Shown: piece after piece, positions 8,940-39,173 of the stretch
How positions within the stretch are numbered: the stretch's first letter is position 1
Layout of the letters: every line of letters begins with the position of its first letter
Assembly (NCBI GenBank): GCA_033816765.1
Contig: CM066290.1
Coordinates: forward strand, 1,922,001 to 1,986,000
DNA: 64,000 bases
From: Nothopassalora personata
Lineage: Eukaryota > Ascomycota > Dothideomycetes > Mycosphaerellales > Mycosphaerellaceae
Direction of reading: 5' to 3'
Position numbers and translations under genes: made by a program
Notes under the pieces: generated by a model
What the model saw: only the letters and a program-made list of their open reading frames with translations
What the model was told of the DNA's origin: nothing
The model's database searches: none

Positions 8940-10825
8940 TCATTGTCCCCGCTTCGTACTCTTAGACCTGAGATGCCGCTCTGAAACAGGTGTGCCAGGT
9001 CTGCTTGTGACCAACGCTTCTCGTACCGGATCTCGTAAAGGCGACCTGCCCGCCGTGGCAACGGCTTCGATGTCGAAGTAGCCTCGGCTACCATCTTTCG
9101 CGTATTGTTTGATGCTGATTGGTGGCGGTCTCGCTCTCTTCTCCTCTGGACTCGAGTTGTGCAAAAATGCTCCGCCGGTAGTGGCTATCATGCCGAGAAG
9201 ATACTGCACGAAGGTTAGCCGCATCAGGTTAAGCAAGTCGAGTAGATCGTACGAATAATGTCGTGTGGAACTCCAGGAACACCACGCTAGTCAAGAATGT
9301 GATGACTGTAGAAACGCTTGTTGCAAGACTCTTCGTCAAGCTGTCGCTGTAGTTGAGTGCCAAAGCCACCAGTACGCCACCTGCTGCCTGCAAAAAGATG
9401 ACAACCCAAACAACCCAGTTATACCCAGTGAAGAATCCGGTCTTCGACAGGTACTCGCCATCCTGGAAGAGTACGCCCAGAAAAAACGCCGGCCAAAGTG
9501 AGTAGAAGGAAAGTTGCACGTTGCGTACCCAGACGGATACCCGCGTGTCACTCTTGCTCTTCAGTGTCCTCTCGAGGTAGACACATGCCAGTCCTGACAA
9601 TATGCAGGCTACAACGGCGGCTGCCAGCCCAACTGAAGCATTCATCTTTGGATTGGCCGCAGCGACATCCTCGTCGATTCCCTCGTATGTCGCAGCTAAA
9701 AGATTCGGCAGTTAGCAGATGTCGAGCAACAGGGGGGGAAGAGACAACCTGTCGTATCCGAGCTAGCAACGTCTCTCAGCACGCACCTATGGGGCTCTGC
9801 TGAGGTGCGGTGGTGTCGCTGTCTAAAACAGCCAACCTACCTTGAGACGTTGCTAGCCTGGCCACGACTGTGTGTACTTCCTGGCATTTTCTCACATCTT
9901 TTGTTGAGCTGTCCCGCAGCTAGGTTGCCCTCAGCCTCCATATCCCAGATAGAGCGCGCAGACTTGAAGGATACTCCATCTCTCAAGTCCTTGATTGATA
10001 GGACGTAGCCCTGTCGCGACACGTACGACAGTTGGACAACCAGCACACCCACCGCCAGCACCACAATACTAAGCCATTTCCTTGGATTGAGCACGCGACC
10101 CATCAGCAGGATACCAAACATGGCGGTGGAGACGATCTTGAGCTGGTATGTGATCGCAGATGTAGCCGCGTCCAAGTTGCTTGCCGCAACATACTGGAGA
10201 CTGTTCGTCACTGTGAACAGAACTGCTGGAATCGCCAGCTTACAGCTATCCCCAGTGAACACAGCTCTTGACAGCGCCTGGGCTAGCTCGCTCACGGTTG
10301 ATGTGTCTGGTGTCTGCGGACTCGTAGCTATTTCGTATAACGCCATCGATAGGAAGAAAGAGAATTTGATGACTTCGGAGAGGAAAATGGCGGTGGAAGC
10401 GTAGTATCGGTCGCCATTGACAAGAGGCATGACCCTCGAGTAATGCATGAGGAGGATGAGAGCGGCATTTTGAACGATGAGCTGTTTCCCGATGGTCAGT
10501 ACAGAGCAGGATGCAAAGCGTGCACGCGACTTTAGTGAAAGCGGCCCAGCTTCAATGACGCAACAAACGCTCTCCTAAAATGACAATGTCTCTGCGTCCG
10601 AAGATGAGAGCATTCGACTCTCTGCGTCTCGCTCTGTCGAGCGCGTCAAGTCCGACGGCCAGAAAGTCTACGTTGCATAGTGTGCATTGCGAAGGGCAGT
10701 CTTTGGGTGAGCCGCTTTCACATATCTCTGCGTGGCGTGCTCTCACGACGTACCGCTGCCAGTGTTAGATGCTTGACAGGTATGCCAGCCAACGTGGCCT
10801 GACGGTGGGCAGAATCGGTAGCCAT
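8940..10825 (-). CDS. UDP-sugar (UDP-galactose type) transporter, SLC35A-like
   Basis: Multi-pass Golgi/ER nucleotide-sugar transporter rebuilt from four exons: 10825-10754, 10481-9896, 9695-9253 and 9203-8940, giving 454 residues. Phases agree at every junction, and the introns (272, 200 and 49 nt) have GT/AG ends with CTGAC or CTAAC-type branch sites. The ATG at 10825 opens a short exon ending HLTLAA, joining to LIVQNAALILLMHYSR. Family hallmarks are that segment, ATSAITYQLKI, and KRSATYEGIDEDVA followed by NASVG, the last restored only by splicing across intron 2. About ten hydrophobic segments are present. The ~85-residue C-terminal tail is hydrophilic and probably cytosolic. Such carriers exchange UDP-sugars for UMP to feed glycosylation; substrate specificity cannot be read from sequence, and UDP-GlcNAc is an alternative. 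Intron 2 belongs to introner-like family C. Confidence 0.87.
9696..9895 (-). repeat. Introner-like element, family C (transporter intron 2)
   Basis: This 200-nt intron starts GTGAGA and ends TTTTAG. It contains a perfect 14-bp inverted repeat, GCTAGCAACGTCTC at 9762-9775 and its complement at 9844-9857, enclosing a second shorter pair (CTCAGCA/TGCTGAG). Its core matches fasciclin intron 3 (17418-17628), including AGACAGCGAC and AGCAGAGCCC. It is about four times longer than the ordinary 49-nt intron in the same gene. Confidence 0.8.
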
Positions 10826-11069
10826 GTCGTGATGCTGCTGCTAGGTCTATGATTCCGGATGCTGCGTTGGTATTCGGACTTCCATGGAATACGATGTTGC
10901 TCTCGAGCTCAGTAGTAAATACAAGAAGTGCCAGCTCAAAGGAGTGTCGTGTGACCCCCCTAGCACTTCCAAGTCAAAAGAGTGTACAGCACAGCAAGAG
11001 AGCAGCTGACGTTGTGCACGTGGATCTTCACCAAGAATTAAAGTCTCGCTGTCTAACCCGGAATCTCGG
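10826..11069. other. Transporter upstream region
   Basis: About 240 bp between the transporter start codon and the transposon edge. It should carry the transporter promoter. The element inserted close to the promoter side, so the promoter may be cut short. Confidence 0.4.
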
Positions 11070-11071
11070 TA

Positions 11072-11097
11072 GAAGTCAGGTGCATGCGGTGCACGGT
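11072..11097 (+). repeat. Left terminal inverted repeat of the Fot1-like element
   Basis: Reads GAAGTCAGGTGCATGCGG, then TGCACGGT; it is the exact reverse complement of 13175-13200. Partial matches continue inward for about 25 bp (GCATGCG, TGCACG, CACCTT). The TIRs are GC-rich and barely mutated compared with the interior. Confidence 0.93.
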
Positions 11098-13174: not shown

Positions 13175-13200
13175 ACCGTGCACCGCATGCACCTGACTTC
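13175..13200 (-). repeat. Right terminal inverted repeat of the Fot1-like element
   Basis: Exact reverse complement of 11072-11097, followed by the TA target dinucleotide at 13201-13202. Just inside it lies a partly palindromic GCATGC/TGCACG-rich tract (13158-13190). Confidence 0.93.
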
Positions 13201-13202
13201 TA

Positions 13203-13857
13203 GCGCGAAGGGTCGATTCGGATGCCAAGTAGGTATGGATCGGGGGGACAGGAGACCCAGTGGCAACGGCCTCCTTGGCTGGACACATTCCTTGTACTTC
13301 CGTATGGAGTGTCATCTCACCATTAGACGCGGACGATAAATCATAGCAGCTGCTTTCGTTGGAGTGCTGAACGACGGCAAAGTCGTGAGAGCGGTATAAA
13401 TTTCCAAGCTGGGGCCAACGACACGAAACACTCTCGGCTTGCAGCCGATCCAGTCGAGCAATATCGCTCAACTTGGGAGGATGCACGGCTGTAAAGTTAC
13501 TCACTCACAAGAAGAGCATGACTGGGACAACGTGGCACAATTGCCGCAGCGGTGTAGGTTGCGAAGATTCCTGGCTAAGCTTTCGTTGCACATGCAGGTC
13601 CCTCCTGCTCAGATAAGAACTACAATAGTGGTCAATTGCCGCCAAGGTGATTGATATCCTCCAGTCGACCCTTCTTCGGCGGCATCGATTACCATCATTG
13701 CGGCAGGCACACGCATGACAGTCTGCACTGGAAGTCGAGCTGTCTGTCGACTCCGACTCCACATCACCGTCCACAACGCGGTTTACCCGATCGCCGCCTA
13801 GTAATTCTTACCAGCACAGAGACAACTTCCCGAGTCCTCCTAACCACCTACGAAACA
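13203..13857. other. Upstream region of the aminotransferase gene
   Basis: About 655 bp of normal base composition between the transposon and the aminotransferase start. It presumably holds the promoter and 5' UTR. I see no supported ORF, repeat or RNA gene. Confidence 0.45.
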
Positions 13858-15995
13858 ATGGCGGGACGTCCACAGAGCTCCATGCGCAACGCGCTGTCCG
13901 GCATAGACACCAAGAACACCGCACGACGTTTCTCGACCTCCAGAGCGTCAACACAAGGTAGGCTTCCGCTGGCGCAGCACAAGTCCCGACGCAGTCTGGC
14001 CAGAGCTTGGCTGTCGAGCTGCTACTCTACCTGTGCGAATATACCGAGAACAAATCGCCATTATTGTGGTTTGGCAGCTGAGCGTACGGTGGCGAGCGGA
14101 ATTTACAGAAAGCTAACAGCGTGTTCAAGAACTCAACTCTGCTGTGCATTTGCAGTTCCGTGAGGCTCATGAAGGCCACAAGCCACATGCGTATGTTTTG
14201 CATTCGTCTGGAGGACACCCTCAACGTGCTAATGCTACAACAGCGGACTGGACCCATCCCGTGCTTCGACCGGTGTAGTCTGGACCACCGAGCGAGCCTA
14301 CGAGCATGGCTTCGCAGAAGAACCTCACCTCTGGGCCAACCTGGGTCAAGGTGCTCCCGAAGTCGACGATGAAATCGAGGGGTGCTTCGAGCGTCCCCAT
14401 ACCATTGATATCTCCAGTGAGTAAGCTCAGCTACAGCAGCCATAGTACGACACCTAAGACACACTCAGAACGCTCATGGCTTCTGCCTGTTCTGTTTGAG
14501 ACACCTGAGCTGACCTACCTTACCTTCAGTGACTGGCCGAGAGTACGGACCAACCGCTGGTATCAAGCCATTGCGCGAGGCGGTTGCCCATCTCTACAAC
14601 GAGCACCATCGTCAAGGCCAAGAGAGCAAGTACACATACGAAAACGTGTGCATCGTTCCTGGAGGTCGTGCTGGCTTGATCCGGATTGCCGCTGTGCTCG
14701 GAAATGCTTACCTTGGCTTCTTCATTCCGGATTACACTGCGTACAACGAGATGTTGTCGTTGTTTAGGAACTTCGCGCCGATCCCTATTCCACTTGATCA
14801 CAGTGACCACTTCCAGATCCACGAGGAGAAGGTTGAAGAAGAGATTCGTCGTGGCACATCAGTCATCCTGACTTCCAATCCACGCAACCCCACTGGCCGC
14901 ATGATCAGCGTGCCAGAACTGGGCAAGATCCAAGATATCTGTCGGGATCGCGCCACGCTGATTATGGACGAATTCTACTCCGGCTACAACTATACCACTG
15001 AGTGTGATGGCAAGGTCATCAGCGCCGCTGCCAATATTGAAGACGTGGACGAGGACGATGTTCTCATTATTGACGGCTTGACCAAGCGCTTCCGTCTTCC
15101 GGGCTGGCGTGTAGCGTGGATCCTGGGTCCAAAAGGTAATATCAGGTCCAGCAGCCCTATTGCGACATCTGAGACTCTCAGAACGCTCATGGCTTCTGCC
15201 CATTCTTTCTGAACATCTAGGCTAACTTTACCTTTCCAGAGTTCATCAAGGCTCTGGGAAGCTGTGGTTCCTACCTCGACGGTGGCACCAACGTCCCATT
15301 CCAAGAAGGTGAGTGCACAGCGCGTGATGCAACGCAGCCCTCGAGTATAGCTGACTCTTCCACTAATCAAGCTGCTGTATCAATGCTGGAGCCGAACAAC
15401 GTCCGCCACGAAATGAAGGCGCTGCAATCTCACTTCATGATTAAGCGCGACTACGTGATTGGCCGTCTCGAAGCAATGGGATTTCAGATGGACTATAAGC
15501 CTGACAGCACGTTCTATCTATGGCTCAACCTTGAGAGATTGCCGAAGGCGATCAACGATGGGCTGAACTTCTTTCAAGCTTGCTTGAGAGAAAAGGTACG
15601 TTTTCTGAAGGTCGATAGCATGTGCTCTCGCACGCGGGGTCGCTTTGCACTCAGCGAGCCACTGACGTGTGCATTGGACGATGGCTAACATACTCGTTGC
15701 TGCAGGTGATTGTAGTCCCTGGAATCTTCTTCGATCTCAATCCAGCCCGCCGTCGCGATCTATTCGATAGCCCATGTCATCACTTTGTGCGTGTTTCGTA
15801 CGGCCCACGGATGGATGTGCTCAAGCACGGTCTGGACGGTTTCGAACGCATCCTGGAGAAGTATGTTGTGATGAAGCCCGTCGGAGCCTCAGACAACGAT
15901 GCTAACGTGGAGATAGATACAACTGCCTCCCAAAGAACTACGAACAGCATGCGACCGAGTTGCCAATTCGCGAGGGCCAAGGACAGCACCCATGA
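13858..15995 (+). CDS. Class I/II PLP-dependent aminotransferase
   Basis: Eight exons: 13858-13957, 14130-14190, 14244-14416, 14530-15135, 15240-15308, 15372-15595, 15706-15860 and 15917-15995, giving 488 residues with all phases consistent. Fold-type I signs are LGQGAPEVDDEIEG, EYGPTAGIKPLREAV, NVCIVPGGRAGL, SNPRNPTGR, the Asp/Tyr pair in MDEFYSGYNY, and the PLP-binding Lys297 in LTKRFRLPGWRVAW. The N-terminus (RRFSTSRAS) looks like a possible mitochondrial presequence. Reading past 15860 without the last 56-nt intron gives a composition-poor extension; splicing it gives a normal tail ending EGQGQHP. The amino-acid substrate cannot be assigned; an ACC-synthase-like or aspartate-type enzyme is possible. 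Introns 3 and 4 are introner-like family A copies. Confidence 0.9.
14417..14529 (+). repeat. Introner-like element, family A (aminotransferase intron 3)
   Basis: A 113-nt intron, GTGAGT to TTCAG. It contains CAGAACGCTCATGGCTTCTG, identical to the core of introns 15136-15239 and 31836-31958, followed by GAGACACC and a CTTACCTT tract before the acceptor. Confidence 0.85.
15136..15239 (+). repeat. Introner-like element, family A (aminotransferase intron 4)
   Basis: A 104-nt intron, GTAATA to TTCCAG, in the same gene as the 14417 copy. It shares the 20-nt CAGAACGCTCATGGCTTCTG core, an upstream GCGACATCTGAGA block also found in the CSC1 copy, and the 3' TTTACCTTT tract. Confidence 0.85.
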
Positions 15996-16636: not shown

Positions 16637-18401
16637 TTACATGCCGGCAATGTATGCGCCAGCGCCGAAGAGGGCGGCAGCGCCAATGGCGCCAGTAATC
16701 TTGGCTGCGCCAGCAGACGATGTTGCTGAAGCCTCGGCAGCGGTAGACGACTGGGCCGAGTTCAGGGCACCAGATGGAGCTGGAGTGTAGCCATCGGCTA
16801 CTGCATCAGTGGTAGGGACGGCGACAGTAGAGGTAGCCGTGACGGCGGTAGTATATGGAACGGCACCCGCAGATGCGCCTTCGAAGGCTGGTGCGCTCTC
16901 GTCCTGTCAAACAGGAGGGTGTTAGATATACTCGACAAGCACGTAACAGTGGCTTAGAGTGTAGTGCAGAAGCGGAGCGAGGCGCATCGTGCAACATATG
17001 TCTCGAATGCTCCGCTGCTGTCTAGGCTACCGCTCGATGACTTATGCCCTTCAGTACGTACCTCGTCTGGGTTTGGTGTGGCAGCGGTGTTGTTGGGGTT
17101 AAGGACGCCATCGATAAGGTGCACAACACCATTGGCGACCAAGATGTCAGCAGCCTGCAGAAGATTAGAACCACTCTCTCTGTGTGTGTCCCAAGATGTC
17201 TAACGGGTGAAGGGCTTCTAGTCAGGGGAACATACCACGACACGGGCGCTGTTTACAAAGACTTCTCCGTCGATGATAGAGACGGTTAAGTTCTGGCCGG
17301 TCATGGAGGGAACGCTGGAGCCGTTCTCCAAGAGACTGCTGTAGGCGACAGTGCCGTTGACGACATGGTAGCCCAGAATCGCGGAGGCCTGCTCGGGAGT
17401 GAGTGAGGCGAGAGCACCTATGATGATTAGAGAGTCAGTCGATGTCCGGCAATCCGGCGATAGATAGAGCCATGCTACCGTGGCCAAGCTAGCGACATCT
17501 CTTAGCACAGCCCCATAGGGCTCTGCTAATGTGCGCTCGTGTCGCGTCGCTGTCTGAGAGAACTCAGCCAGCTTGAGACGTCGCCGACCAAGTCACGATT
17601 GCATGTACTCCCTAAAATGACTTACTACCGATCTCCTCGAAGGCGGAGTTGACTGGTGCGAAGATGGTGACGTCGGGAGTGGTGTCGACGGCCTCTGTAA
17701 GATTGGTCGCTACCAGAGCACCGGCAAGGCCAGTCAGGCCAGCAAGCAGGGCAGTGTCGGATACGCTCACAGGAAGGGTGAGTACGGAATCGATAATGTG
17801 TACGACACCGTTGGCGACAGCCACGTCCTGAGAAATGCTTTAGCTTCCATTGCCAGTATTTTCTGTGTGGGTACTTACCGCCGTGGTGACATTGGACCTC
17901 TGGCCCAGACCGGAGATGATGGTTGCTGTGCCATCATCGCCGCTCACGAGCCTAGCACCGACCCTTTGACCGCCAGTAACATTCGCGTATGTCTCATTGC
18001 TGAGCAGAGAGGCTACGAAGGTTGGGGTTGATGTGATGTTCTCTGACCGGACGGTGCCATTGAGCACATGGTATGAGAGAAGTGCCATGAGGGTATCGTT
18101 GTTCATTGCTGCCGCCTGGTTCGCTGGGGACTCCATGAATGTCGCGAAGGCATCGTTGCTTGGTGCCAGGATGGTAATATCGGTGGCATTCGCAAGCATA
18201 CTAACCACTGATGGTCGATTAGCCTTGTGCATCGACTTTGCTTCGAGTTGAGTACTCACAGTCAGGGAACCCCGACAGGATAGTGTTGAGCTGGGACAGC
18301 TCCTGGGTGCTACTGAGGGCAGCAGCAAGCTCTGGCGGAGCATCTTGGGCGAGAGCAACAGCAAATGTTGCTGCGGCGGCGAGGAACTTCTTGGAGAACA
18401 T
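16637..18401 (-). CDS. Secreted GPI-type fasciclin (FAS1) protein, two FAS1 domains
   Basis: Six exons (18401-18260, 18207-17879, 17827-17629, 17417-17236, 17154-17062, 16903-16637) give 403 residues, all in phase. A signal peptide (MFSKKFLAAAATFAVALA) is followed by two FAS1 domains. The first has ITILAPSNDAFATF, LLSYHVLNGTV and ANGVVHIIDSVL; the second has VTIFAPVNSAFEEIG, ILGYHVVNGTV and ANGVVHLIDGVL. These are the family's H1, YH and H2 motifs in order. Many NxT/S sequons are present. The C-terminus is Ser/Thr/Ala-rich and ends in a hydrophobic stretch (AAALFGAGAYIAGM), consistent with a GPI anchor. Fungal FAS1 proteins act in cell adhesion and wall organisation; that role is inferred. 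Intron 3 is introner family C and intron 5 is family B. Confidence 0.92.
16904..17061 (-). repeat. Introner-like element, family B (fasciclin intron 5)
   Basis: This 158-nt intron runs from GTACGT to TTGACAG. It carries CCTAGACAGCAGCGGAGCAT, TCGAGACA, GCGCCTCGCTCC and ACGTGCTTGTCGAGTATA in the same order as CSC1 introns 2-4, although the host genes are unrelated and on opposite strands. Confidence 0.88.
17418..17628 (-). repeat. Introner-like element, family C (fasciclin intron 3)
   Basis: This 211-nt intron matches transporter intron 2 in a core with CGTCTCAAG, AGACAGCGAC and AGCAGAGCCC. It has an imperfect terminal hairpin between GCTAGCGACATCTC (17488-17501) and GAGACGTCGCC (from 17575). 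Ordinary introns in this gene are about 50-80 nt. Confidence 0.78.
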
Positions 18402-20193: not shown

Positions 20194-21900
20194 TCAGTCA
20201 TGCTTCTCCGCCCAGCCAAAATCGAAGCATATGAAGTTACACGCTTTGTCGCGACGCGCAGAGTTGATTGTTCTGGCAGCGACATGAGCACGCGATTCCT
20301 TCTCTACCCAGATCTCCGCTCTCCGTCTCTCTACGTCGTAGATGTCTGCAGCTTGGTTGTCAATCCACCACAAACCGAGCGGGTCGAGATGTTCCAGGTA
20401 GCTATCGACGAGCTCTCGATGAGCATGGCACATGGTTTGTCGGGAAAGGGCTCGCAGACCTGCTGGTTTCGGAAGCCAGCCCTGACCGCAGCGTAGGACC
20501 TTCAGACCTTTCCAGTTGTGAGCGAATATCTTCGCGACGGCCGAAGACTGTGACCACGGGTTATCGCCATAAGATGTATGGCGAGAGCGCGAAGTGTCTT
20601 CCTCCGATCTATGGAAGGCCAAAGCTGGTATCCACTCACCTAAAAAGAAGGGTGTTAGCGATATTCGAACACCATGTGCCGATGCGGTAGCAGCCGCTAC
20701 TCAGCTGGGAACCCCGCGCGCAGGTGTCAGACGGACAATCCTGTCTGGTCGTTGGATTAACTCACTGCATCCTTCCAGGTCGAGCCATTGCAGACGTAAC
20801 AAGTTGCCGCTTAGCTGGCGGAGAATATTAGCTGGTTCGCTCCAGTCCTCATCCAGGCCAGAATAGTAGTGACTGCCGCCCGCGCGCACGGGCGGGCTGT
20901 GCTGGCTGGAGACCGTGGTAGTACGTAGATTAGGAGTGAGAGTAGGTCGAGGCCAGTAAGCAAGGGAGAGGTGAGTCAAATTTGGTGTTTGTTTCGACAA
21001 GGCCAGGAGGTCGCGCCAGAATGTGCCAGGGAGAGGATGTGATAACGAGAGATGCGTTAGTTGTGAGAAACGCGACACAGCCACATTTGGGGAAAGTGCA
21101 GCTTCCAGTGTCTCCCTGTGCTCCCAGGACTCTACCAAAGTAGGTTCGATTTCTTTCTCGACTGCAACCGAGGCTGTCTTCATGTGCTTGACCAATCGAT
21201 GAAGTGTAAGAGATGGTCCAAACAAGCCAGCCATGTCCAGACGAGTCATTGGCTCGCTGCCTATGGTAAGGGCTTCGAACACAGATATATCAATATCTGG
21301 CCCATAGTAACCAAGGTAGCTCAACAACTTCATTCGTAGGCGCAACGGGAACTCCGCCAAGGCAGGCAGGTCTGCCTCATCGAACATGTCCCACGACTTG
21401 GCAGCTGTCTTCAGGGCTAGATGCACTAGACTCTTTTTCCGCTGACCATCCTCGAACGCTCCATGCCCGGTCAACTTAGCGAAGCGCATCAACTCATCTG
21501 GTCTACTACGGTCATTGTTAGCACATGTATTGGAGCGCTGGCCGGTTCTGAATGGCAATGTTGGCGTCCACGCCGGATGTTTCGTCCAGCTTGCAGGTGG
21601 TGCAGGTCCGGGTGTGCGATTTGGCAGCCTGGTTCGCGGCCTATGCTTGGGGATGGGTGGTGCTGTTTCCGAGATTCCCATAATGGCTCCAAGCTCAGGT
21701 GGTAGAGCTGACCTTTGGCTGACAGCTTCAGCGAGCTCACGCTTCTTCCGCGCCGCATTCTTTCCCACTACCTTCCTCGACTCTGCCAGGCGCTCATTGA
21801 CGGTAGCTGTCTTCTGATTGCCATCTTGGCTGGCAGTCTGGTGGCTGCTCGAGGACGATCCTTGTAATTGTTTGTAGTTGAAGGCACGTTTCTTGGGCAT
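20194..21900 (-). CDS. Leucine-rich-repeat-like ascomycete protein of unknown function
   Basis: Two exons, 21900-20766 and 20639-20194, give 526 residues. The intron (GTGAGTTAAT ... TTTTTAG) joins GCS to EWIPALAF in phase, so the leucine-rich unit LQWLDLEGCSEWIPAL is completed only by splicing. I use the ATG at 21900 (MPKKRAFNYKQLQG). The N-terminal ~120 residues are basic, proline-rich and probably disordered. The middle contains LRR-like units (LTHLSLSHPL, LTHLSLAYWP, LQWLDLEGC) resembling F-box/LRR proteins, but no clear F-box. The C-terminal part is rich in W and charged residues (LKVLRCGQGWLP, ARTINSARRDK). I do not recognise a named family; a role as a protein-interaction scaffold is a guess from the repeats. 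Confidence 0.75.
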
Positions 21901-29668: not shown

Positions 29669-32600
29669 ATGGATACCGCTGGCCACATGGCGATGCGCCT
29701 GGTCGCGCGTCAATCAGTATGCAGCCATCTCCGCGCGAGGTGAAGAGATTATCATACTGACGCGCAGACAGGGCGGCAACAATCAAGGGAGCAACCAAAA
29801 TGCACAAGGCTCATCAGTGTCAGGAATGGTCTCGACGCTTGTGCCCGTCGGTCTTCTCTCGGCCGTCATCTTTCTGCTCTTCTTGATTTTCCGCAACAAG
29901 TACGACCGGGTCTACCAACCGCGCACTTACTTGGGCTCGATTCGCAACTGGCAGCGCTCGCCCAAGCAAACGACTGGCCTGCTCGGTTGGAAGAAGGAGT
30001 TTACCGAGCTCAAGGACGAGTTTGTGCTTGGACATGCGTCCATTGACAACTACTTATGGCTGCGCTTCTTCAAGATGATGACGGTCATGTGCTTGGTCGG
30101 ATGCTTCATCACCTGGCCCATCTTGTTTCCCGTCAATGCCACTGGCAGTAACGCAGAGGCCACCGGACTCGACATCTTGTCGTTCAGTCACATCAACCCT
30201 GGCCCACGATACTTTGCGCAAGCCATTGTCGCAATTCTCTTCTTGTCTTGGGTCATGTTCATGATCACCCGCGAATCAAAGTTCTTCATACGTTTGAGCC
30301 AGCGATACTTCCTTTCGCCCTATCAGCGAAGCCGCATCTCGACAAGGACTCTCCTCTTCACCAACGTACCAGAGGCTGCCCGTAACGAGGAGCACATACG
30401 AAATCAGTACGCTGGCGTCAAGGCTGTCTGGCTGGTCAATGTCCCCGTGGATCTTGCCGAGAAGGTCGATGATCGCGATAAGGCCGCCAACAAACTCGAG
30501 ACTGGCGAGATCAAGATGATCAAGAAGCACTACAAGAGACAGCTGAAGTTGGAGAAGAAGGGCCAGGCCAGCGATCGTGTGAACCCGGAGCAGGGCGCTC
30601 GAGTCGAGGTGCACAAGAAGGTACGCACTAAAGGCGAGCGGTGGCCTAGACAGCAGCGGAGCATTCGAGACACACGCGGCACGACGCGCCTCGCTCTACG
30701 TCTACATCACCTTCTAAGACACTGCAACGTGCTTGTCGAGTATAGCTAACACCCTTCTGTTTGGCAGGACATTCCAACACACCGCCTGCCGAAGCTCAAA
30801 TTCCTGCCCATTGGCAAGAAGGTCGAGACGATCGATTGGAGTCGTGGCGAACTGCGTCGCTTGATACCGGAGATTACAACAGAGCAACGTGCACTGGTCG
30901 GCAACACCTCCAATACACAAGCCGCATGCTTCATCGAGTTTGACACCGTTCAGTCCGCTCACGCAGCGTGGACTCAGGCCGCAAACATGGGCCGCAAGGA
31001 GAAAGCCAAGTCGATGGCTAAGATGACACCCAAGGTAAGGCAGCGGCGGAGCATTCGAGACATTTATCGCACGACGCGCCTCGCTCCACGTTTATAGCCC
31101 TTTCTAAGTCGCTGCCATGTGCTTGTCGAGTATAGCTAATTTCCTTATGCCGGCAGGAGTTCGGCACAGAGCCCGCTGATGTTATCTGGAAGAACACCAT
31201 CAAGCCACTGTGGAAGACGAAACTGTTCAGCATCCTCGGCACGGCCTTTGTCTGGTTCTTGTGCATCTTCTGGACGATCCCGGTTGCAGTCATTGGTGCC
31301 ATCTCCAACATCACTTACCTCACCGACAAAGTATCATTCCTCGGCTTCATCAACAGTATTCCTCCGGTCGTTCGCGGTGTTGTCACTGGTCTGCTCCCTG
31401 TCATCCTGCTTGCAGTGCTCATGACTTTGGTGCCGATTATTTGCAACATTATCGCCAAGCTTTTCGAGCCAACCCAGAGCGCTGTCCAGATGAAGGTTCA
31501 GGGCTGGTACTTTCCATTTCAGGTCATCCAGGTACGAATTGAATTGGTATACCGCGTCAGCGGTGGCCTAGACAGGGGCGGCGCATTCGATACATGCAAT
31601 GCACGATGCGCCTCCCTCCCTCCACGTCTACACCATTTTCTGAGACACTGCTACGTGCTTGTCAAGTATAACTAACACCCTTCTGCATGGCAGGTCTTCC
31701 TTATCACCACATTCTCCTCTGGAGCTGCTTCAGTCGTCAACCAAATCATCAACCAGCCCAGTTCGGCGGCAACACTGCTGGCACAGAACCTGCCTAAGGC
31801 CTCCAATTTCTACATCTCATACTTTATCTTGTTCGGTGAGTAAGGTCAAGTACAGTGGTCACGATGCGACATCTGAGAGACAATCAGAACGCTCATGGCT
31901 TCTGTCTTTACGTATGAGACACCAACGCTACACCGACGCTAACCTACCTTACCTTTAGGGCTACAAACGGCTGCTATGCAATTCCTCAACGTAGTGCCCC
32001 TGTTGTTCGTGCTGTTCCTGGGCAAGATTCTGGACTCAACACCAAGAAAGATGTACAACCGCTACGTCAACCTTGCCGGACTCGGATGGGGATCGCTATA
32101 TCCAAAGTTTACCAACTTGGGTGTCATTGGTAAGCCACATTGCAGTCCCAGTTCGATACTTGCTAATATTTTCCAACAGCACTCTCATACTCCTGCATTT
32201 CGCCATTGATCCTGGGCTTTGCTACAGTCGGCTTTTTCCTGCTCTACCTTGCCTTCCGATACAGCGCACTTTTCACGCTAGGAACGACGGTGTCGACCAG
32301 AGGCCAATCTTACGCCCGTGCCATGAAGCAGCTTACCGTCGGCATCTACCTGTCCGAGATATGCTTGATCGGTCTGTTCGCCATTGGAATTGCCGAGAAC
32401 AGAATCTCGATCGGACCCATGATCATTATGATCATCTTCCTCGTTGCTACGATCATGTGGCAGGTCTGGCTCGGTCGATCCCTCAAGAGGCTTGAGAACG
32501 ATATGGTGGAGGACAGTATCGCACCGTCAGCAGTCACTGGCAAGCTCCGCGATAGCAGCGACGTTGAGAAGGCACCAGGTTCTGTTGATGAGACTCGCCC

Positions 32601-33051
32601 GGCAGGACTTGGTAATAACCAAGACCACCTTGCGAAGGACGGCTACGACCAGGCGAAGCCCGAAACGGACAACGCGGGCCACGAGCACTTGCGCCAGAAT
32701 CCAAGCGGAGAGGTTGGCCTCATGGCTCGTATCAAGCGCTACTTCAACCCCGAGGCTGCTGCTGTGTATGCCGTCCAACAAGTCTCGCCCCATCTGAGCA
32801 CTCCAGTTCGAGCTTACACGCAGAAGGAGCACGATGAGGCATACCTTCACCCTGCTATTATTTCCGAATGCCCAATCATCTGGATCGCAAGAGACAAGTA
32901 CGGTATTTCGAGGCAGGAGATTGCTGCTTCTCGGGAAGACGGTTACACGATGACTGATGAGGGTGCTGAGTTCAACGGGAAAGGCAAGATTGAGTGGAAG
33001 AACGATGATCCAAAGAATGCGCCCATCTGGAAAGATGAGCCAGTGTATTAA
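29669..33051 (+). CDS. CSC1/OSCA/TMEM63-type stress-gated cation channel
   Basis: Seven exons: 29669-29716, 29772-30620, 30768-31034, 31157-31531, 31694-31835, 31959-32129 and 32180-33051, giving 907 residues in phase. Exon 1 encodes MDTAGHMAMRLVARQS; its 55-nt intron has a CATACTGAC branch site. The architecture is that of the DUF221 superfamily. An N-terminal membrane segment (LVPVGLLSAVIFLLFLIF) is followed by further N-terminal helices (WLRFFKMMTVMCLVGCFI) and a cytosolic PHM7-type domain (TLLFTNVPEAARNEEHIR). Then comes a large multi-helix pore region (VWFLCIFWTIPVAVIGAIS, INSIPPVVRGVVTGLLPVI, ALSYSCISPLILGFATVGFF), and finally a soluble tail with YLHPAIISECPIIWIARD. Family members are hyperosmolality- or mechanically gated Ca2+-permeable channels in plasma or internal membranes. 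Introns 2, 3 and 4 are introner family B and intron 5 is family A. Confidence 0.93.
30621..30767 (+). repeat. Introner-like element, family B (CSC1 intron 2)
   Basis: A 147-nt intron, GTACGC to TTGGCAG. It shares GGCCTAGACAGCAGCGGAGC, ATTCGAGACA, ACGACGCGCCTCGCTC and CGTGCTTGTCGAGTATAGCT with the other family B copies. It is closest to the fasciclin copy at 16904-17061. Confidence 0.9.
31035..31156 (+). repeat. Introner-like element, family B (CSC1 intron 3)
   Basis: A 122-nt intron, GTAAGG to CCGGCAG. It carries GCAGCGGCGGAGCATTCGAG, CGCACGACGCGCCTCGCTCC and GTGCTTGTCGAGTATAGCTA in the same order as intron 2; the 5' end is shorter. Confidence 0.9.
31532..31693 (+). repeat. Introner-like element, family B (CSC1 intron 4)
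   Basis: A 162-nt intron, GTACGA to ATGGCAG. It carries CGGTGGCCTAGACAGG, GCATTCGATACA, GATGCGCCTCCCTCC and TACGTGCTTGTCAAGTATAA. It is the most diverged of the three copies in this gene. Confidence 0.88.
31836..31958 (+). repeat. Introner-like element, family A (CSC1 intron 5)
   Basis: A 123-nt intron, GTGAGT to CTTTAG. It contains CAGAACGCTCATGGCTTCTG, GCGACATCTGAGA, GAGACACC and a terminal CTAACCTACCTTACCTTT tract, matching both aminotransferase introns at 14417 and 15136. Confidence 0.88.
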
Positions 33052-33901: not shown

Positions 33902-34352
33902 GACCAACATCAACATTATCAGTGCACCACACGATCGAAGAAATCTCGAATGCAGCATCACAGGTCGCAGCGGCATAGCTGCTGCCAGATGATGAGGTGG
34001 CGATGATTGGGCGAACATAAGGCGTAGAGCTCGAGGTACGTCTTACTCTTCACTTCATCCGTTTCCCTTCCCATATGATGAGACATACAGCTGGCACCAG
34101 TCTGAGAAGACTTGTACTCTTTTGCTGCGGAATAGCTTTGCACGAGTGTAAACACTCTAAGTCTGACTCATGTTCCTTCACCATTCTCGCCAGAACAAAC
34201 AGGGAAGGAGCATGCGCTGATACATGCGCACAGAATCACTACCTAATCATGTCGCCGCTTGGCCTAGCAATAACTCGACCGGATATATTCAGCTCCATCC
34301 ATAGGCAGTCAGCACATACCTCATGACCATCTGCATATTCGGTCGCGCGTTG
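33902..34352. other. Spacer between dynactin p27 and an F-box-like gene
   Basis: This 450-bp region is a convergent 3' spacer between the plus-strand p27 stop and the minus-strand stop at 34353. I see no supported gene, repeat or RNA. Confidence 0.45.
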
Positions 34353-38060: not shown

Positions 38061-39173
38061 CTACTGCAAATTCTCCTCCACCCTCTTCGCGGCCTCCTTC
38101 AACCCCTTCTCAGTCGCATCTCCTCCACTCACCAGCGTCTCGCCCACATACTTGGCACTCCCCGCAACACTCTCGTTCTGCACATCCTGCAATTGCTCGC
38201 CGGCGTACCTTGCTCCCCCGCCAATTGTTTCTCCCGCGTAGTTGAGGCCGGCAGCGATGTATGAACCGGCGGTTCCCAGGGCGCTGCTGGCGCCCTGCTG
38301 CGTGCTGTCGGCGGCTTTGTTGGCTTGTGATTGGGCCTGGGAGGCGAGGTCGGAGGCTTGTCGTTGGGCTGTGCCTGCTGCTGAGCTTGCGGCTTCTGAG
38401 GCTTGAGATGCGAGATCAGAAGCTTGTCGCTGGGCTATACCTGCTGCTGAGCCTGCAGCTTCTGATGCTTGGGAGGCGAGGTTGGTGCCTTGCTTTTGAG
38501 CTTGGGAGGCGAGGTCAGAGGCCTGTTGTTGAGCCGTATCGGCTGCTGAGCCTGCAGCTTCTGATGCTTGAGATGCGAGATTGTTGCCTTGCTTTTGAGC
38601 TTGGGAGGCAATGTCAGAGGCTTGTCGCTGGGCTGTACCTGCTGCTGAGCCCGCAGCTTCTGATGCTTGGGAGGCGAGGCTGTTGCCTTGCTTTTGAGCT
38701 TGGGACGAGAGGTCAGAGGCTTGTCGCTGGGCTGTACCTGCTGCTGAGCTCGCACCTTCTGATGCCTGAGATGCGAGATTGTTTCCTTGCTGTTGGACTT
38801 GAGAGGCGAGATCGGAAGCTTGTCGCTGGGCTGTACCTGCTGCTGAGCCCGCGGATTCTGAAGTTTGAGAAGCGAGTTTAGAGGCCTGGTTTTGAGCTTG
38901 AGACGCAAGGTCTGAGGCTTGCTCTTGGACTGTGCCTGCTGCTTCTGAAGCTTGCTCTTGAGCTGTACTGGCGGCGGCGGACGCCTGCTTTGAGGCGGTG
39001 TTGGCGGTGTCTTCAGGTTGATTTGCGAGGGAGTTTGTGTCCTTCTGGACTGTCGAGGTAGAGGTGGAGGTCGTGGACGAGGATGTCTCTAGCGCATGAC
39101 CTCTGGCCATAGCCTCGTCGGCGAGTTTCTTGGCCCCTTCGTGGATTTCGCCGGTCGTGTTGTAGTCTGCCAT
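38061..39173 (-). CDS. LEA-like repeat protein built of 33-residue units
   Basis: Single exon, 370 residues (MADYNTTGEIHEGAKKLADE). Residues 85-249 are five complete 33-residue repeats of the type QASDLASQAQKQGNNLASQ plus ASEAAGSAAGTAQR, followed by one 22-residue unit. Each unit equals three 11-mers, the period of group 3 LEA proteins and other amphipathic-helix proteins. Composition is dominated by A, S, Q and G; there is no signal peptide or membrane segment. The tail (GSYIAAGLNYAGETIGGGAR, YAGEQLQDVQ) resembles CsbD/LEA-like stress proteins. Such proteins coat membranes or protect proteins during drying and heat; a stress role here is inferred. Length probably varies between strains because the repeats are nearly identical. 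Confidence 0.8.
   Translation of the reverse strand: MADYNTTGEIHEGAKKLADEAMARGHALETSSSTTSTSTSTVQKDTNSLANQPEDTANTASKQASAAASTAQEQASEAAGTVQEQASDLASQAQNQASKLASQTSESAGSAAGTAQRQASDLASQVQQQGNNLASQASEGASSAAGTAQRQASDLSSQAQKQGNSLASQASEAAGSAAGTAQRQASDIASQAQKQGNNLASQASEAAGSAADTAQQQASDLASQAQKQGTNLASQASEAAGSAAGIAQRQASDLASQASEAASSAAGTAQRQASDLASQAQSQANKAADSTQQGASSALGTAGSYIAAGLNYAGETIGGGARYAGEQLQDVQNESVAGSAKYVGETLVSGGDATEKGLKEAAKRVEENLQ
38361..38921 (-). repeat. 99-bp coding tandem repeat
   Basis: Five full 99-bp units and one 66-bp unit inside the LEA-like gene. The short unit lacks exactly 33 bp, one 11-mer, so the frame is kept. Units differ at scattered positions but share TCAGAGGCTTGTCGCTGGGC-type blocks on the plus strand. 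Confidence 0.88.

Follow-up and report, generated by a model that had tools for sequence, protein, structure and literature searches.

The locus described here raises the question of how introns of two unrelated genes come to be copies of one sequence, and whether that sequence has spread as an intron in its own right. By the window we mean the whole stretch of DNA analysed, 64,000 nt of contig CM066290.1 of Nothopassalora personata.

One intron sequence in two genes of the window

Introns 2, 3 and 4 of a CSC1/OSCA-like channel gene and one intron of a gene for a fasciclin-domain protein (so identified by a domain match) are copies of one ~158-nt intron, here family B (Table 1), which bears out what the first-pass annotation had claimed of these unrelated genes. 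The fasciclin intron matches CSC1 intron 2 at 85% over 136 nt, a CSC1 query recovers it with E=6.4e-37, and the alignment of all four runs from the 5′ GT to the 3′ AG save for the gap in intron 3. The ordered blocks that the annotation described as shared hold overall, except that intron 3 has the CCTAGACAGCAGCGGAGCAT block incomplete and intron 4 has the variants CCTAGACAGGGGCGGCGCAT, TCGATACA and GTGCTTGTCAAGTATA. Its further statement that the flanking exons are unrelated stands for the three CSC1 introns, whose 60-nt flanks show a mutual identity of 27–32%, the comparison covering the CSC1 introns alone.

The spliced CSC1 frame is continuous and carries the Pfam domains RSN1_TM, PHM7_cyt, RSN1_7TM and PHM7_ext (residues 19–168, 192–385, 398–668 and 789–879); OSCA channel structures also match its translation, and the top database protein match is from Dothistroma septosporum at 81% identity. 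Aligned with seven fungal homologues, the protein shows 0 gaps at the five junctions, and length-variable stretches lie just ahead of the junctions at residues 283 and 372. A paralogue of CSC1 on contig C9 (main block 42% identical) reads in a single frame through 5/5 intron positions (residues 283, 372, 497, 544 and 601). This paralogue may serve as an empty-site comparison, loss of the introns there being also conceivable.

Two repeats of other kinds were also seen in the window, namely a direct-repeat array at 38302–39042 with 99-bp spacing and six register copies of a 246-nt reference, and a 34-nt inverted repeat, 94% complementary, whose arms (11064–11097 and 13175–13208) lie 2.1 kb apart.

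Table 1. Host gene and repeated introns in the window (a slash marks an exon–intron border; genome matches include the copy itself)
Feature	Position	Strand	Length	Match	Ends or borders	Remarks
Host gene, CSC1/OSCA-like channel	29900..33051	+				First base read to stop; start codon not fixed
CSC1 intron 2, family B	30621..30767	+	147 nt	HMM 143.4 bits, model 1-158	AAG/GTACGC..GGCAG/GAC	Phase 0 at aa 283
CSC1 intron 3, family B	31035..31156	+	122 nt	HMM 105.5 bits, model 39-152	AAG/GTAAGG..GGCAG/GAG	Phase 0 at aa 372; ~35 nt of the 5′ part absent, near the 5′ end
CSC1 intron 4, family B	31532..31693	+	162 nt	HMM 130.4 bits	CAG/GTACGA..GGCAG/GTC	Phase 0 at aa 497
CSC1 intron 5, family A	31836..31958	+	123 nt	25 genome matches	GTGAGTAAG..CTTTAG	Phase 1 at aa 544
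Fasciclin-gene intron 5 (first-pass numbering), family B	16904..17061	-	158 nt	HMM 152.5 bits, model 1-158	GACGAG/GTACGT..GACAG/GACGAG	Exonic GACGAG on both sides
Family A copy	14417..14529	+	113 nt	32 genome matches	GTGAGTAAG..CTTCAG	
Family A copy, diverged	15136..15239	+		72.5-bit match		Ends set by eye
Fasciclin-gene intron, family C	17418..17625	-	208 nt	15 genome matches	GTAAGT..CATAG	
Family C, partial match	9740..9882	-		77% over 143 nt to L017 1378-1520		
Family D copy	20640..20765	-	126 nt	8 genome matches		

Family B across the genome and its behaviour as introns

The first-pass annotation put the family at four members, a number that did not survive, as the genome holds many more; the genome search that had been set beforehand as a possible refutation of the introner-like reading turned up many further copies. 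In the 54.5 Mb searched, the original stretch as query gave at least 40 scored matches, CSC1 itself included (one of them, L023, is an exon of a CSC1 paralogue without a family B copy), and a BLAST search with the consensus found at least 40 family B elements. The pattern GTGCTTGTCGAGTATAGCTAAC, with up to three mismatches, matched 47 times versus 0 for the reversed control, and TTGCACGACGCGCCTCGCTC matched 56 times versus 3 for its control. A further pattern, TCGAGTATAGCTRAC, was dropped from the counting, 6 of its 38 matches (L092, L093, L095, L096, L097 and L099) being one repeat. That repeat, more than 2 kb long with copies ~90–96% identical, contains, perhaps coincidentally, the 15-mer TCGAGTATAGCTAAC that belongs to the 3′ module of the introner.

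An HMM trained on the first copies matched 99 times at E ≤1e-3 in the fetched loci, 61 of the matches reaching 60 bits or more; as these loci had been chosen for their B matches, the 61, which include one duplicate and one fragment, are no genome-wide census. With the segmental duplicate L063 and the fragment L040 removed, 59 copies scoring 60 bits or more form the working set. L063 (C5:4928558-4930977) and L046 (C1:500400-502513) share 2114 bp at 99.9% identity with a family B intron inside, which is a very recent duplication. The L040 match (positions 1065-997, C8:2977796-2977728) is an internal piece of family B across which no clear gene was seen; on its two sides stand CCACATGTC and, as the reverse complement of that sequence, GACATGTGG.

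Family B has a 5′ GTACGT, a branch-site-like GCTAAC and a 3′ GGCAG. Its copies are well diverged, the median pair among 54 aligned copies differing at 33%; since even the nearest pair is 12% apart, the burst is probably over and the family inactive.

The copies are bounded by splice sites, with GT exactly at family position 1 in 50/59 and with GT within -8/+11 and AG within -10/+7 of the family ends in 55/59. Taking out these 55 introns restores reading frames: with 60-, 90- and 120-nt flanks the frame is open in 53, 49 and 45 of the 55 when spliced, versus 6, 4 and 3 when unspliced and 37, 26 and 20 when read antisense, the antisense contrast being weak. These counts contain CSC1 intron 3 at a wrong GT (offset +10) and L058 (C4:3368958); the sets of 54 copies used for distances, folding, symmetry, flanks and k-mers are the same 55 minus this L058 copy. 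Among 20 spliced host translations picked by eye from the 54 as recognisable, 19 have a Pfam match, to varied families, and in 12 the match crosses the splice junction (L030 included, from its junction at residue 95).

Some family B copies are not working introns. Splicing fails to open the frame in 6 of the 55 copies (90-nt flanks), and no splice-site pair was found in 4 of the 59 (L009, L011, the L058 copy at C4:3370030, and L060). The copy in L011 (C4:3068196-3068345) is 89% identical to the consensus, lacks the GT start and lies in surroundings with no clear split gene. For the remainder, splicing in vivo is a prediction from splice sites, frames and homology. The introner-like reading of the first-pass annotation gains support from the further genomic copies with their splice-site borders, from the variety of the protein genes that hold them and from the CSC1 paralogue that lacks introns at all five positions compared.

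Insertion sites and a proposed route of spread

As three copies occupy consecutive introns of CSC1, local tandem duplication or gene conversion might have copied one intron into its neighbours. The CSC1 pairs are indeed nearer than many others, with p-distances of 0.171, 0.254 and 0.279 (0.5th, 16th and 26th percentile), and by raw distance no copy is nearer to intron 4 than intron 2. However, a tree of 44 copies separates the three and joins each to copies from other contigs: C2:935205 is the partner of intron 4 (support 98/81), a C8 copy is that of intron 3 (89/79), and intron 2 is grouped with copies from C3, C1 and C4 (80/75). End branches of this tree are long (median 0.15), few of its forks are well supported (4 of 41 starred), and its bootstrap is rough according to the program. 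The CSC1 exon flanks are not duplicated, and in two other loci with several copies, L065 (96th percentile) and L072 (56th to 90th), the copies are not nearer to each other than pairs taken at random. Local copying is accordingly a very improbable account of the CSC1 introns, and the three copies look like separate insertions.

Their target sites have a common feature, as an exonic AG stands directly before family B in 44/54 copies, compared with a background of 0.066 in the flanks, and a G directly after it in 31/55. Border repeats of 3 bp or more, scored first in three fixed registers and then as any shared k-mer within 12+12 nt, are not above expectation: exonic k-mers of 4, 5, 6, 7 and 8 nt common to both borders occur in 14, 5, 1, 0 and 0 of 54 copies, where pairings of different copies predict 13.7, 3.2, 0.75, 0.13 and 0.02. 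The sole shared 6-mer is the GACGAG of the fasciclin copy (expected 0.0 in exact register and 0.75 for any 6-mer within 12+12 nt), which may be chance or the trace of a duplication. A duplicated AG (2 bp) would be indistinguishable from the AG that any 3′ splice site requires. No terminal inverted repeat was seen by eye, the consensus opening with GTACGTACT and its reverse-complemented end with CTGCCAAAC, and self-complementarity is weak, with z -0.9 under strict and 1.2 under lenient scoring (25/200 shuffles as good in the latter).

These borders bear directly on a second reading, in which family B would be a MITE-like introner, a short non-autonomous DNA transposon that brings or recruits its splice sites and depends on a transposase to move. 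TSDs or TIRs are present in most introner families outside ascomycetes (PMC9860276, in excerpt), a 2-bp AG duplication is compatible with our data, one copy does stand between 6-bp direct repeats, and the copies include at least one fragment that is not an intron. Against this stand the border k-mers at their expected level, the want of a visible terminal inverted repeat or marked self-complementarity, and the fact that copies in the tested genes read as sense introns. The 3–9 bp TSD and/or TIR of DNA-transposon introners was thus not found in family B, with the fasciclin repeat as the sole exception, and we regard movement by a transposase as unlikely.

It could also be supposed that these are old introns kept alike by an RNA they encode, such as a snoRNA or a ribozyme, since introns can host snoRNAs and the family has conserved blocks. 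Yet no Rfam match at gathering score falls on these introns; within the window a snoRNA at 34073–34167 (+ strand; C/D-box, Afu_190, 58.5 bits) alone reaches that score. Nor do the copies fold better than shuffled sequence: the consensus has an MFE of -50.1 kcal/mol (z 0.21; 116/200 dinucleotide shuffles as good), and the 54 copies have a mean z of -0.006. RNAalifold on the 54 copies gave no pairs, a result of little weight as the column-shuffle control likewise gave zero. With host genes so varied, and a CSC1 paralogue that does without all five introns, conservation for an encoded RNA is hardly credible.

In our judgement family B is likely an introner-like element (ILE), that is, a non-coding and complete spliceosomal intron of ~158 nt that spread in sense orientation into exons of unrelated genes, mostly after an exonic AG, and presumably by way of spliced-out RNA. 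Intron-exact ends, the sense orientation in the tested genes and the lack of regular duplications are together most in line with RNA-mediated reverse splicing, which has been proposed for fungal ILEs (PMC9860276 and PMC8469720, both in excerpt). By this route the spliced-out intron RNA would be the spreading form; it would be reverse spliced into transcribed DNA, perhaps at R-loops, and the inserted RNA would then be converted to DNA.

Companion families, shared host genes and known introners

Family B shares the window with three further intron families, A, C and D (Table 1). The fasciclin gene holds a C as well as a B intron; its frame is open across both, and the Fasciclin domain spans the C intron. 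In the D copy at 20640–20765 the 3′ part resembles B (17.7 bits with the B HMM on the last part). B and D have a common 3′ part, from branch site to AG, and different 5′ parts (the D copy of the window, L053, L027, L083 and L122), as if modules had been exchanged.

In rows with splice sites and 60-nt flanks the spliced frame is open in 23/24 for A, 10/11 for C and 6/6 for D, and the unspliced frame in 6/24, 0/11 and 0/6, some rows being repeats of one copy. The families differ in their sites, as AG precedes the intron in 1/17, 2/10 and 1/6 distinct copies of A, C and D (rows taken by hand) versus the 44/54 of B. They also differ in their starts, with GTGAGT in most of A and D, GTAAGT in most of C, and GTACGT in B. 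GTGAGT and GTAAGT pair well with U1 RNA, and B may depend on the AG of the exon for efficient splicing.

Copies of these families were found close together far more often than uniform placement predicts. Genome-wide searches gave a list of 134 matches (A 35, B 76, C 15 and D 8) with 21 pairs at 2 kb or less, of which 19 have both members on one strand and 14 join different families; with the window excluded, 125 matches form 12 such pairs (11 same-strand), 9 of them between families, the 12 and the 9 being hand counts from the match list. Placed uniformly in a 25 Mb target, 1.24 pairs are expected overall and 0.74 between families, and 0/5000 simulations reach either count; with a 12 Mb target 0 and 1 of 5000 reach the two counts, and with 6 Mb 52 and 25 of 5000. 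The list leaves out C5:4929758 (segmental duplicate of C1:501388), six weak matches with a short HMM match at most (C8:583382, C8:1898179, C9:1907420, C9:2035335, C10:2773221 and C11:2285710), the 30-bit fragment C1:7469525 and the matches of TCGAGTATAGCTRAC; its B part retains weak pattern matches, the fragment L040 and the D-like member C1:7468963, and the family A matches L109 and L110, which have flanks in common, probably represent a single duplicated locus. Two loci were examined as single genes, the fasciclin gene described above and L017 on C2; the latter has B, C and A introns, and its frame is open for 248 codons once they are removed.

Given this excess of close pairs over the simulations, the genes that carry these introns do not represent a random draw from the sequence. 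The co-residence might stem from targeting, from tolerance or from expression; some genes might be especially open to, or tolerant of, insertion, which would bring unrelated families into the same genes. More tentatively, insertion could be aimed at particular genes and not at sequences, the families A, B, C and in part D, dissimilar in sequence and in splice context, having time and again entered the same genes, always in the sense direction. Were this so, intron gain would be directed at a property that these loci share, such as transcription-linked single-stranded DNA (R-loops, for example) or transcripts available to the spliceosome. Already in print are four genes that each hold two ILEs and a peroxidase gene that was invaded in three species and may attract ILEs (PMC4457414, in excerpt). 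The excerpts of PMC4457414, PMC9860276, PMC3443670, PMC8469720 and PMC3510045 contain no genome-wide test of co-residence across families, the main ILE papers of 2011–2013 lying outside this set. ILEs are a documented source of new fungal introns; with four families in one genome, family-specific site preferences and co-residence, gene-level targeting becomes testable.

Family B is a further set of members of the introner-like kind known in Mycosphaerellaceae. ILEs of Fulvia fulva, Dothistroma septosporum and relatives were reportedly described by van der Burgt in 2012. Published accounts of ILEs from D. septosporum and relatives (Collemare 2015, PMC4457414, and PMC3510045, in excerpt) likewise concern this group. 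Fungal ILEs and the families described here are alike in being similar canonical introns in unrelated genes, with several families per genome, and genes with two ILEs occur both in the published species (PMC4457414, in excerpt) and here. An AG/GY site preference is recorded for fungal ILEs (cited in the excerpt of PMC8469720), and of this pattern family B shows the AG before and the G after the intron. Stable RNA structures have been reported for fungal ILEs (cited in the excerpts of PMC3443670 and PMC8469720), whose mark would be greater stability than in regular introns; the folding of family B, for which shuffled sequence was the yardstick, does not exceed it. Families that are 98–99% identical occur in F. 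fulva and Z. tritici, and family B, with its nearest copies 12% apart, is more diverged, in which it is more like the D. septosporum families as these are described.

Outside this group, the introners of Micromonas, Aureococcus, Symbiodinium and other eukaryotes are, as here, ready-made introns inserted genome-wide (PMC9860276, in excerpt). TSDs and/or TIRs are frequent among those families, in contrast to family B, where none of at least 3 bp exceeds expectation; in this, the 2-bp case aside, it agrees with ascomycete and other fungal introners, reported without TSD or TIR in the same excerpt. Finally, the repeated stwintrons of Hypoxylaceae (PMC8469720, in excerpt) are also repeated fungal introns on the coding strand with no flanking duplication, but there the introns are nested twins whose internal symmetry is strong, and the symmetry of family B is weak.
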